Assembly (NCBI RefSeq): GCF_900890425.1
Contig: NZ_CAAHFG010000001.1
Span: forward strand, 2,666,001 to 2,730,000
Direction: 5' to 3'
Source of the DNA: Pontiella desulfatans
GTDB lineage: Bacteria; Verrucomicrobiota; Kiritimatiellia; Kiritimatiellales; Pontiellaceae
DNA length: 64,000 nt
Every line of letters starts with the position of its first letter. Position 1 is the first letter of the stretch. The position numbers and the translations under genes are program-made. Below, piece after piece: positions 13,426 through 61,196 of the stretch. Below the pieces are notes generated by a model. It was not told where the DNA came from. It saw nothing but the letters and a program-made list of their open reading frames with translations, and did no database searches.

Positions 13426-14832
13426 TCAGTGCCTATCCGAATGCTTCCGCTCCAGCGCCGCCATCTCCGTTTCGCGGCCTCGGTCGCCCTGTTGTTCCAT
13501 CCAGTTATCGAGGTGCTTCTTCAGCCGGGCAATGTCCATGTTGTATTCCGGGTTTCCGGCCAGGTTGTGCATTTCAAACGGGTCTTTTTCCATGTCGTAG
13601 AGTTCGAATTCCGGGCGTTTCCGATATCTGGAAACCTGCTCCTTCGCAAAGGCATCGCCCGATTGCGCCTTTTTCTCCCACGACTTAAACGGCTTGAAGC
13701 CCTTGGTTACCGAATTCCGGAACTCGCCTTCAGGGTTGAGGTTCCAGATCAGACGGAACCGCTTGTCCCGCACCGTGCGGATTCCATAGGCATCCGATCC
13801 GGCATGGATACCGCGCGTGGTCTGCATGCCGAAAACATAATCATGGAGTTTATCCGATGTTCCAGCCAGCACCGGAACAAGGCTCTTTCCATCAAAATCA
13901 TTTGATTCGACATTCCCTCCAGCGAGTTCGATGAATGTCGGTAGAATATCCACATACTGGATCATGGCTTCTGAAACGGACGGTTCAACCTGTTCCAACC
14001 ATTGGAAAATTCCAGCCGACCGCAGCCCCGAATCATAGCACGTCCATTTGCAATGCGGGAAGTTGGAGCCCTGCTCCGACAGGAAAACCACCAGCGTGTT
14101 TTTTTCCAGTCCATGTTTTTCCAATGATTGGAGGCAGTAGCCGAGCTGGCTGTCCATGTAGGTGATCTCGGCATAATATTTCGTCATCGCCTCACGCGTC
14201 TCCGGCGTATCGACCATGTAAGGCGGAAGCGCCAGCTTCTTTGCATGGTAAACAGAGGCATCGCCCCGCGTCCACGGCGCGTGGGGCTGGTTCGACTGCA
14301 CCATCAAACAGAACGGTTTATCACCTCTCGCCCCCAGGTATTCATCAATCTTCCCCAGCTCCAGATCAACACCTTTACCGGTGTCATGATGAACCCCGCC
14401 CAGAAAATCGAACGGAAAGTTTTCGGGCGGGGCATGGTGCGTTTTCCCGATGAGCGCGACGTCGTAGCCGAGCGGGCGAAGATAGTGCGGCACACTTTTA
14501 ACGTGGTCATAAACCCGGCTGTGGTTGGGATGCCCGCCGTTGCGCACCGGATGCAAGCCCGTAAACAAACTCATCCGGGTCGGCGCGCACATCGGCGCGG
14601 AATTGTAGCAATGCATGAACCGCATGCCCCGCTGCGCCAACGCATCGATGTTCGGCGTCTTTACATCGCGGTTCCCATAGCACCCGAAATCATGCCACGA
14701 GCAATCGTCCGCCAGGAACAACAGAAAATTCGGTCTATCAGCGGAGACAGATAAAGAAACCACGAAACACACTAAACACACGAAAAGCCCGTGCATGCTC
14801 TGCTTCGTGTATTTGGTGTATTTCGTGGTCAT
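13426..14832 (-). CDS. Secreted sulfatase (heparan N-sulfatase-like, S1 family)
   Basis: Exported sulfatase of 468 residues. Metal site D42-D43 in LADDCSW and formylglycine C82 in CAPTR. FLSEQGSNFPHCKWTCYD matches the sulfamidase-like branch, visible here as SEQGSN with a downstream GLR block. Start 14832 follows GGAG at a suitable distance and lies 4 bp after the previous stop; a second ATG at 14796 is possible. The signal peptide (about residues 13-31) is odd: it is encoded by one arm of a long inverted repeat (14759-14829), and residues 2-10 (TTKYTKYTK) by the other arm. Third gene of the unit 17420-13426. Confidence 0.88.
   Translation of the reverse strand: MTTKYTKYTKQSMHGLFVCLVCFVVSLSVSADRPNFLLFLADDCSWHDFGCYGNRDVKTPNIDALAQRGMRFMHCYNSAPMCAPTRMSLFTGLHPVRNGGHPNHSRVYDHVKSVPHYLRPLGYDVALIGKTHHAPPENFPFDFLGGVHHDTGKGVDLELGKIDEYLGARGDKPFCLMVQSNQPHAPWTRGDASVYHAKKLALPPYMVDTPETREAMTKYYAEITYMDSQLGYCLQSLEKHGLEKNTLVVFLSEQGSNFPHCKWTCYDSGLRSAGIFQWLEQVEPSVSEAMIQYVDILPTFIELAGGNVESNDFDGKSLVPVLAGTSDKLHDYVFGMQTTRGIHAGSDAYGIRTVRDKRFRLIWNLNPEGEFRNSVTKGFKPFKSWEKKAQSGDAFAKEQVSRYRKRPEFELYDMEKDPFEMHNLAGNPEYNMDIARLKKHLDNWMEQQGDRGRETEMAALERKHSDRH
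14759..14829. repeat. Inverted repeat of CACGAA/ACACxAAA type inside sulfatase 5' end
   Basis: The left arm (14759-14787) begins ACCACGAAACACACTAAAC and the right arm (about 14802-14829) is its near-complement, ending TTGGTGTATTTCGTGGT. The arms match at most positions over about 28 bp, with a short GC-containing loop. The element is the same class as degenerate ACCACGGAATACAC repeats in the gap before hsdR (60926-61196). It forms codons 2-24 of the sulfatase gene here. Confidence 0.75.
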
Positions 14833-14836
14833 AAAT

Positions 14837-16018
14837 TCACTTCGCTCCGGTGTGTGTTTTGATGCACTCGATTTCGGCCGGATCGAAAGGGGTGTGGTCT
14901 GGATAGAAGATTTCGTGGAACCAGACCTTTGGATACGGCATATCCTCAATCGTTTCACACACCACGCCCTGCTCGCGCAGCTCGTCGACGTTCTTGCCCT
15001 TGCGGCTTGCCCAGGGATAGACGCAGCCGGTCTTGCCCGCCACAAAGCCCCAGTTGAAGGCGCCCACATTGTATTTCTTCAGCGTCGGCAACGCCTCCTG
15101 GAAGGTGCTGCTCGGCCGCGCCATGTATTCGGTGCAAAGGGATGGACGGCCAAGCTCCGCGTATTCCTTGCACAGTTTTTCGATCACCCCGTTGTTGTAG
15201 GAATGCCACGAAATGACATCCGAATTAATCTTGCCGATTTCAATGTTCTTTTCCCCCACACTGCCTTCCGCGCAGGACATCACCGGCTGGCTCGGATTCA
15301 CCGAACGCGCCCAGCGCCAGGCATCCATCAGCAGCTTGGCGCTGGCATCGCCGAATGCCCCCTTTGCTTTCTTGGAACCCATGTCGCCGCCCAGGCCGCG
15401 TCCGCGCCCCGGCTCGTTATAGAGTTCCCAGGCCAATACCCGGTCATCGTTTTTGAAACGCTCCATGGTTTTCTTCACATAGCCCTCCAGCCGCGCTTTG
15501 TCGGCTTCGGAGGCCTTGCCCTGCGAATAGGCGGTGGCCACATCGCGCGCCGGCGAGTTCAACCAGCCGGAGTTGTGGTATTCAGGCACCGGCAACGGCT
15601 GCTTTCCAAGCACTGGAAATGGGTGATGGCAGTCGTCGAAAAACACCAACAACGGTTTTATACCGCGCTTGGAACACATCTCTAAAAACTGATCCATTCG
15701 CGTATAGAGCCCCTGCTCGTCCGCGCCCCAGACCACATCGTGCAGATAGACGCGCAGTGTGTTGAAGCCGATCGACTGCGCCAGATCCAGCTCCTTTTTG
15801 ATGATCGCCGGATCAAAACTTTCCGCCTGCCACATCTCCAGCTGGTTGATCGCATTCGCCGGAATATAGTTGCAGCCCACCAGCCACGGTTGTTCTGCAT
15901 ACCAGGCCTTCGCCTTTTCGACCGACCAGCGCCCCGGCACCGTCTCGACGGTCACTTCAGCCACCGATGCTATTGCTGACCATAGTGCTACAGCCATCAA
16001 ACGTTTTTTTCCAATCAT
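14837..16018 (-). CDS. Secreted GH5-like glycoside hydrolase (often labelled 1,4-beta-xylanase)
   Basis: Exported TIM-barrel retaining glycosidase of clan GH-A, 393 residues. Signal peptide about 1-20 (IASVA-EVTV). The acid/base is E202 in WELYNEPG and the nucleophile is probably E297 in CTEYMARP. FNTLRVYLHD (about 85-94) and LLVFFDD fit early barrel strands. Proteins of this type are often named 1,4-beta-xylanase without biochemical proof, so the substrate is open. Middle gene of a unit with a sulfatase on each side (10-bp and 4-bp spacings), pointing to joint action on one sulfated chain. Confidence 0.8.
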   Translation of the reverse strand: MIGKKRLMAVALWSAIASVAEVTVETVPGRWSVEKAKAWYAEQPWLVGCNYIPANAINQLEMWQAESFDPAIIKKELDLAQSIGFNTLRVYLHDVVWGADEQGLYTRMDQFLEMCSKRGIKPLLVFFDDCHHPFPVLGKQPLPVPEYHNSGWLNSPARDVATAYSQGKASEADKARLEGYVKKTMERFKNDDRVLAWELYNEPGRGRGLGGDMGSKKAKGAFGDASAKLLMDAWRWARSVNPSQPVMSCAEGSVGEKNIEIGKINSDVISWHSYNNGVIEKLCKEYAELGRPSLCTEYMARPSSTFQEALPTLKKYNVGAFNWGFVAGKTGCVYPWASRKGKNVDELREQGVVCETIEDMPYPKVWFHEIFYPDHTPFDPAEIECIKTHTGAK

Positions 16019-21776: not shown

Positions 21777-22730
21777 CTATTCGGACGGGCGCTGCTCCAG
21801 CGTCCACGTTTCCGTGAACGAAGACGAGGCTCCTGGTTCAATCCAGTCCCAAGGCCCCATGGGTTCCATTTCGCAACGACCCCCTTTATACCAAACCGTC
21901 ACCGCATGCGCCGTCGGTTCGGCATACGCCCGATCCGGATAAAACGGGAACCGCTTCGTGAACAGCAAACCGCGTTTACTGTGGAACGCCATCCACCCCG
22001 CCTCGGAATCAATTCCAAGCTTTGGAAGTTCCGGCGGAGCATTTATGAGGAGGACATTACCCTGCTGGAGGGGCAGACGCTGTCTGCCCGGGCGCTCAGC
22101 GAGCGCCCCTCCATGAGGAGGCGTTGCCTCCACCACTTCAATGGCCGGATCGTCCGGCGGATGCAGCAGCACCGATTGGTTAGTATAGCTTCCGCCAAAC
22201 TGCACATAGCCTTTCGGAAATCGGCTGTTTGGATTCAGCGGCACTATGCAGGTGCCGTCGCCCGTCACAAACGTCCGGGAAAAATGGGCATAGCGCTTCC
22301 GTACATTGGAACTATTTTTGATGGTCTGGGTAAACTTCAGCTCCGAGCTGTTTTCCGACAGCTGGAAATCCCGAACCAGCTGCACACCCAGTTCCTCATT
22401 CACCACGCTGGTTGCACGCATCGAAAAATCGCCCGTGTGCTCCAGTTTCCATTCCCCCAGCCACAGATCAAAATGCTTCGGTGTGCTCCCTCCACCGCTG
22501 ATATCACAACGTCCACCGTCCAATTCCTTGTAGCCCTTGCCATCCCATGCCCAGTCACCGATGGCCGGATCGACATAGAGAATGTTATTTCCGTTCAGCG
22601 AATATTCCGTCAACCGTCCGCCGGTCGAGTCGAGAACGACTCGGGTTGATGCGTTGGTAATTGATAGTTGATCGGCACTTGCGGAACAGATGCCCAACAG
22701 CCCCCCGGCAACCATCAACTTAACAACCAT
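21777..22730 (-). CDS. Secreted mutarotase-like (DUF4380-type) protein
   Basis: Exported 317-residue all-beta protein with the look of galactose-mutarotase-like sugar-binding proteins: STRVVLDSTGGRLTEYSLNG near the start, then strands LKFTQTIKN and AVTVWYKGG. Signal peptide about 1-19 (SASA-DQLS). It is the last gene of the araB unit; its ATG shares a base with the previous stop (TGATG). Residues about 200-222 (PPHGGALAERPGRQRLPLQ) are encoded by a run of three small hairpins at 22066-22131, an in-frame repeat insertion that is probably a surface loop. No catalytic residue can be named with confidence. Confidence 0.65.
   Translation of the reverse strand: MVVKLMVAGGLLGICSASADQLSITNASTRVVLDSTGGRLTEYSLNGNNILYVDPAIGDWAWDGKGYKELDGGRCDISGGGSTPKHFDLWLGEWKLEHTGDFSMRATSVVNEELGVQLVRDFQLSENSSELKFTQTIKNSSNVRKRYAHFSRTFVTGDGTCIVPLNPNSRFPKGYVQFGGSYTNQSVLLHPPDDPAIEVVEATPPHGGALAERPGRQRLPLQQGNVLLINAPPELPKLGIDSEAGWMAFHSKRGLLFTKRFPFYPDRAYAEPTAHAVTVWYKGGRCEMEPMGPWDWIEPGASSSFTETWTLEQRPSE
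22066..22131. repeat. Three tandem hairpins inserted in-frame in a CDS
   Basis: GGGCAGAC/GTCTGCCC (22071-22089), GGGCGCTC/GAGCGCCC (22090-22108) and GGAGGC/GCCTCC (22117-22131) are three perfect stems with 3-base loops. TGGAGGGGC at 22066 and GCCCCTCCA ending at 22113 bracket the first two. This is the form of a mobile palindromic repeat lying inside an open reading frame. Confidence 0.75.
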
Positions 22731-60925: not shown

Positions 60926-61196
60926 ACTGATTCTCCAGAAGGATTAGCCACAAGAGAGCGCAAAGGACGCGAAAACACGTTTAGATTGGATGGCCACAAA
61001 GAGGCGCAAAATGCACGAAGATGATTTACCACCCGCTTCGCTAGAGGCACGGAGGCGCGGAGTTTGTTTTGACAGGATATCAGGATGTGCATGATTTTTT
61101 ATTCCTCTGTGTCTCTGTGCCCTCTGCTTGTCACGCCATAGCTTTAGCGACGGCGGATGGTGAAAATAGGTTCCGTGTATTCTGTGTATTCCGTGG
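60926..61196. repeat. Cluster of degenerate dispersed repeats between hsdS and hsdR
   Basis: The 271-bp gap holds nested imperfect inverted repeats: GGCACGGAGGCGCGGAG against CTCTGTGTCTCTGTGCCCTC, and GCCACAAAGAGGCGCAAAAT against a terminal TGTGTATTCCGTGGTTAA. A TTTGACAGGATATCAGGATG word lies in the middle. I see no gene. The first class also forms the signal peptide of the sulfatase at 14832. Confidence 0.6.

Follow-up and report, generated by a model that had tools for sequence, protein, structure and literature searches.

The sulfatase gene at positions 13426 to 14832 of the window, a 64,000-nucleotide stretch of the 8.66-Mb genome of Pontiella desulfatans, opens with a palindrome, raising the question of whether a dispersed repeat may provide the signal peptide of an exported enzyme. 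The initial annotation had described codons 2-24 as two near-complementary repeat arms, the first encoding a basic n-region and the second a hydrophobic core, and had proposed that the repeat was recruited as an export signal. The features of the gene start are the following.

13426..14832, minus strand: sulfatase coding sequence, 468 aa, PF00884 (E 1.7e-35), with the CAPTR (CxPxR) active-site motif intact
14737..14758, minus strand: SLSVSAD, end of the leader, with a predicted signal-peptidase I site between VSA and D
14759..14784, minus strand: right arm, codons 17-25, FVCLVCFVV; hydrophobic core (LFVCLVCFVV)
14785..14803, minus strand: loop, codons 11-16, approximately QSMHGL; contains the in-frame alternative start M13
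14804..14829, minus strand: left arm, codons 2-10, TTKYTKYTK; basic n-region
14837..16018, minus strand: upstream co-directional gene with a weak Cellulase/GH5 match; its stop, TGA, lies 4 nt before the sulfatase ATG
14845..14848, minus strand: GGAG, possible Shine-Dalgarno sequence, 12 nt before the ATG at 14832, within the end of the upstream gene

The first 25 codons of the minus-strand reading frame (ATG at 14832, N-terminus MTTKYTKYTKQSMHGLFVCLVCFVVSLSVSADRPN) form a 73-bp palindrome with arms of 26 nt, 88% complementary, and a loop of 19 nt; the hairpin thus covers codons 2-25, essentially as annotated. It is the first listed of the five inverted repeats of at least 20 nt found in the window with arms within 120 bp. 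The corresponding RNA hairpin has a folding energy of -40.3 kcal/mol (z -7.7) and starts at the G of the AUG, where it could hinder initiation and limit expression of the sulfatase.

The leader peptide, MTTKYTKYTKQSMHGLFVCLVCFVVSLSVSA, followed by DRPN at the start of the mature protein, is organised, by its sequence features, like a type I Sec signal peptide: a basic n-region, a hydrophobic core and small residues at -3/-1. Its hydropathy and charge are like those of ordinary leaders, the maximal 10-residue mean hydropathy being 3.50 and the charge +3, at or above the values of 2.28-3.44 and 0 to +2 in ten ordinary sulfatase leaders. Cleavage is predicted after A31. The SLSVSAD segment is probably the leftover end of the ancestral leader; similar small-residue ends precede the mature domain in relatives of the sulfatase.

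Two findings would have spoken against a leader role, namely orthologues sharing the leader but devoid of the repeat, and a translation start downstream of it. No orthologue of the former kind was seen: the nearest sulfatase relatives (51-53% identity, none closer than 53% being found) carry plain, repeat-free leaders, such as MKVLILIIGFCAVLAQA, and in other genes containing the element, described below, orthologues at 72-77% identity have unrelated leaders. As for the latter, the stretch from the element to the conserved DRPN at which the sulfatase domain starts (DRPNFLLFLADD) contains no in-frame ATG, GTG or TTG, while a start at M13 (codon 13), in the loop, would still make use of the right arm. 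Together with the predicted leader itself and the recurrence in other exported proteins, this supports the proposed recruitment, and a dispersed palindromic repeat very likely supplies both n-region and core of the predicted leader. The leader would be functional and the sulfatase exported. The element presumably arrived by a transposition-like insertion, by which it may either have replaced the ancestral leader or only interrupted it.

Copies of the repeat were collected by combining pattern and covariance-model searches. The arm sequence ACCACGAAATACACCAAATAC has 19 matches in the genome (at most 2 mismatches), while its reversed control has none. A covariance model, built on six full copies, including that of the sulfatase, detects about 38 distinct hairpin places, the weakest of which are borderline; the sulfatase copy is found with E 7e-17, being one of the six sequences used for building the model. 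The typical element spans about 65-80 bp and consists of two inverted arms around a loop, the arms being formed by nine-base units (AACCACGAA/ATACACnAA/ATACACGAA). Copies end in AACCACGAA...TTCGTGGTT, contain two or three units per arm and have unrelated loops. The family is thus a dispersed extragenic hairpin made of two inverted repeats. No match to it was found in Rfam, whose only hit in the window is one tRNA; no obvious target-site duplication was seen among the copies inspected, and no clean empty site, defining the insertion ends, in six relatives, where one apparently empty sucC-sucD spacer looks deleted. Among the literature matches listed for the bare arm motif, no paper on such a repeat was present. 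A region near the end of the window, cited in the initial annotation as an example of the same repeat class, has the following composition.

60926..61196, no strand assigned: cluster of several other nine-base-period repeats
61172..61196, minus strand: lone arm of a closely related subfamily (CCACGGAATACACAGAATACACGGA)

Only the latter segment is therefore close to the sulfatase element, the remainder of the cluster being made up of different repeats.

The repeat class had been described as intergenic. Its members are indeed mostly found between genes, but are better defined as intercistronic, since 35 of the 38 copies in this genome lie between co-directional genes (genes being called with a simple codon model instead of a standard annotation tool). 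Co-directionality itself is unremarkable, since 35 of the window's 43 gene pairs share it (p 0.06). The remarkable feature is closeness to a stop codon: 25/38 copies start between -2 and +14 nt from the upstream stop, also where 80-250 nt separate them from the next start, while such positions make up about 8% of the intergenic DNA of the window (p about 1e-18). Similarly, in six relatives 46/55 copies are co-directional, none is convergent and 28/55 are next to a stop. The sucC-sucD and miaA-hflX spacers contain hairpins in most of the species looked at, with arm families differing between genomes of the genus (L159-L168, L174-L181); such alternation of arm types in the same spacers fits a hotspot with turnover. 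At the sulfatase, the element lies 6 nt behind the upstream stop, which is the usual place for family copies. What is odd there is that the ATG falls at this place: since only 4 nt separate it from the upstream stop, the leader contains the element in frame.

Further genes show this arrangement. The LolA gene (PF03548) contains the element in its leader (MNTMF-KPRNTQNTRKRKSLIIPCILCIPW-FISITCIA). LolA is normally indispensable, and the gene is single-copy in this genome; its element-bearing leader is therefore probably in use, which argues that such leaders can work. In a second sulfatase of this genome (PF00884) the leader, ..KILRTVFVCFVSFVVSSSFA, includes the right arm only, and a third sulfatase-like gene has the leader MQKQTKQIV-NNEGTKNTKVMQVCSFVFFVSLW-LNPDALIA, although translation may instead begin downstream of the element. 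In a GH16 enzyme (PF00722) the element is located in the n-region and the gene's own core is retained, which has the look of an n-region insertion; translation might here also begin at a TTG behind the element. Two sulfatases of other species also carry the element in their leaders (L214, L216). The leaders of orthologues of LolA (72% identity), of the second sulfatase (73-76%) and of the GH16 enzyme (73-77%) are unrelated, and two GH16 orthologues have another palindrome (TGGAGGG...CCCTCCA) in the corresponding position. The precise register of the sulfatase, with the ATG directly before the palindrome, is rare: when about 85,000 species were scanned for exact occurrences of this combination, five other places were returned, none of which heads a long open reading frame.

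Two further observations concern palindromes within genes. The TGGAGGG...CCCTCCA sequences of the GH16-orthologue leaders (L278, L274) represent a second palindrome family, and a similar palindrome occurs at positions 22061-22118 of the window. In addition, at one locus of the same genome (L144, C4:493904-493976) a hairpin is found in frame in the middle of a predicted protein (NHKDTKNSKKGRLGAPSCSSSLRG), in the manner of a Rickettsia palindromic element.

Leader capture by these repeats is a chance event that recurs and has a structural basis. Translated, the left arm gives TTKYTKYTK or PRNTxNTRK, and the complementary right arm FVxLVxFVV or PCILCIPW. Because nine bases equal three codons, an arm keeps its frame; because the arms are both codon-periodic and complementary, an open reading through the palindrome tends to give a basic and then a hydrophobic peptide. 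Accordingly, 82 of 339 open frames from 90 hairpins (24%; frames and copies are not independent, which makes a p-value no more than indicative) are signal-peptide-like, i.e. basic and then hydrophobic, for 105/3101 (3.4%) in shuffled hairpins and 133/7124 (1.9%) in random DNA of the window. In the proposed sequence of events, hairpin copies would settle preferentially right behind a stop, in the spacer that precedes the following co-directional gene; at the sulfatase, where the ATG follows the stop by 4 nt, the element would come to lie in frame within the leader. The K and R codons of the left arm would then provide the basic part and the F, V, L, C and I codons of the right arm the hydrophobic part of a Sec layout, with c-region and cleavage site provided by the leftover SLSVSA. 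Leaders would tolerate such an insertion because their exact sequence hardly matters and because they are cut off. Reading through a palindrome whose period is a codon multiple would thus represent a concrete one-step route from repetitive DNA to an export signal. It would also explain odd leaders of the TTKxTKxTK... and PRNTxNTR...PCILCIPW kind, possibly taken for errors by annotators, and allows one to test how far signal peptides tolerate being replaced wholesale.

Other readings of the locus were considered. The resemblance might be a coincidence, a native leader having converged on the repeat, as low-complexity hydrophobic leaders can resemble many things; this is extremely improbable, and is refuted at the DNA level, where both arms match the family, not only by the model, to which the copy itself contributes, but also by the pattern matches, which are independent of it, and where the distance from the upstream stop is the usual one. 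Alternatively, the insertion may have damaged the gene, by disrupting the original leader and leaving a poorly translated or unexported relic. The strong mRNA hairpin at the start codon, the poor Shine-Dalgarno sequence, weakened by its 12-nt spacing, and the many sulfatase paralogues of this genome, which could cover for the loss, would agree with such an outcome, which is nevertheless improbable, given that the 468-codon frame is kept open with its CxPxR motif, that the leader metrics are normal and that the same arrangement is found in the only LolA copy.

The remaining two alternatives concern the nature of the repeat. The hairpins might mainly be functional intercistronic RNA structures, as proposed for BIME and ERIC, selected at spacers, with the leader role as a by-product. 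This reading, unlikely but of appreciable weight, draws on the position of the copies behind stops within gene pairs, and on the sucC-sucD and miaA-hflX spacers, where hairpins are present in most species examined, though with different arm sequences; elsewhere, however, patchy presence, swapped arm families and unrelated loops look like the turnover of a mobile repeat, and the stem is not followed by a T run as in terminators. A classical REPIN, mobilised by a RAYT (Y1 transposase) and hence expected to share ACCACGAAATACAC arms with a Y1 gene, is on the other hand a quite improbable identity for the element. The element is a short dispersed hairpin of two inverted repeats, and the genome does contain 19 Y1_Tnp matches, but nine-base-period repeats were present at none of the 12 Y1 loci inspected out of these 19, and three of the 12 have other flanking repeats. 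The preferred reading, a dispersed repeat captured as a leader, may be compared with the known systems.

The repeat of the sulfatase leader appears closest in kind to the Rickettsia palindromic elements. These elements (RPE; Ogata and Claverie) are reportedly short dispersed palindromes, located in frame in protein-coding genes and translated. The likeness, which is one of description, resides in a palindromic dispersed repeat lying in frame in otherwise conserved genes (sulfatases, LolA, GH16 and the L144 protein), where it would be translated; unlike RPE, the present family is usually located behind stop codons, and its in-frame cases are mostly cleavable leaders, with one protein interior (L144). 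Rickettsia palindromic elements are named in PMC3767692, and REPINs and RAYTs are dealt with in PMC3116915. Similarly to REPINs, the element is a dispersed hairpin composed of two inverted repeats. It is probably non-autonomous, and related repeats flank a gene that is a candidate for mobilising it; this gene, however, is of the PD-(D/E)XK GxxExxY type and not a Y1 transposase, and the arms have a nine-base period and lie at sites close to stop codons. The present hairpins occupy spacers between genes, as do intercistronic repeats of the BIME/ERIC/IRU type, but show several interchangeable arm families at one spacer, as well as the nine-base period. BIME/ERIC/IRU-type repeats form hairpins in transcribed spacers between genes.

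The candidate mobilising genes belong to the GxxExxY family (TIGR04256, PF13366 PDDEXK_3, PD-(D/E)XK), nucleases which are common in bacteria and without known role; 14 are present in this genome. Inverted repeats built in this nine-base style enclose them, and the sites occupied are of the kind seen for the hairpins. Over 43 loci, 29 of them taken from further genomes within the phylum, the upstream flank matches the downstream one as an inverted repeat with a median score of 43, for 20 both with mismatched flanks and in direct orientation, and 35/43 loci exceed the 95th percentile of the control; 26 sulfatase loci, used as a negative control, scored 20 in the median and 26 at most. This inverted-flank test was preferred to a strict three-unit period-9 detector, which was too stringent at these loci (10/43). 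The arms (loci L009-L022, L084-L112) are locus-specific versions of the nine-base style (ACCACGAAG, ACCACAGAG, AACCACTAAT, CAGACAGGATAACAGGAT...). Like the solo hairpins, at least eight units of this genome follow a co-directional stop closely, starting no more than about 8 nt behind it. One solo hairpin that has the arms of a GxxExxY unit lies near that unit (L018). On plasmids, a GxxExxY gene of Bernardetia is located between co-directional ade and guanylyltransferase genes, with inverted flanks, one of Sphingomonas between co-directional fabD and fabG, with the upstream arm only, and a unit of Gemmatirosa has palindromic flanks. GxxExxY genes are found in 66/69 genomes with at least four ACCACGAA-type arms, versus 68/172, figures uncorrected for relatedness and genome size. 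A MITE-like non-autonomous element would share its terminal inverted repeats with an autonomous one; no unit with exact AAATACAC-type arms, as in the sulfatase element, was found in this genome. No link between GxxExxY genes and bracketing inverted nine-base-period repeats was found in the literature searched, where GxxExxY itself gave one unrelated paper and PDDEXK_3 nothing useful.

These data suggest GxxExxY as a possible mobiliser of the wider repeat class. A broader proposal, tentative and held at somewhat less than even confidence, is that GxxExxY nucleases are the engines of widespread mobile nine-base-period hairpins homing behind stops, each unit having its own arms, with solo hairpins as non-autonomous offspring and a recurrent source of signal peptides. 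If true, a large and so far unexplained family of nucleases would acquire a function, and repeats that are very common but equally unexplained (ACCACGAAG, ACCACAGAG and similar) would acquire a mobiliser.

Some additional repeats were observed in the same genome. The locus pairs L042/L043 and L026/L034 each share one arm together with similar flanking DNA, which suggests larger duplicated segments containing the repeat. Finally, three Y1 transposase-like genes (L298, L301, L304) lie between long inverted repeats that belong to other families (GGGGTCAGYCCTCG...; AGCCCGGGGC...), and possibly represent RAYT-REP pairs.
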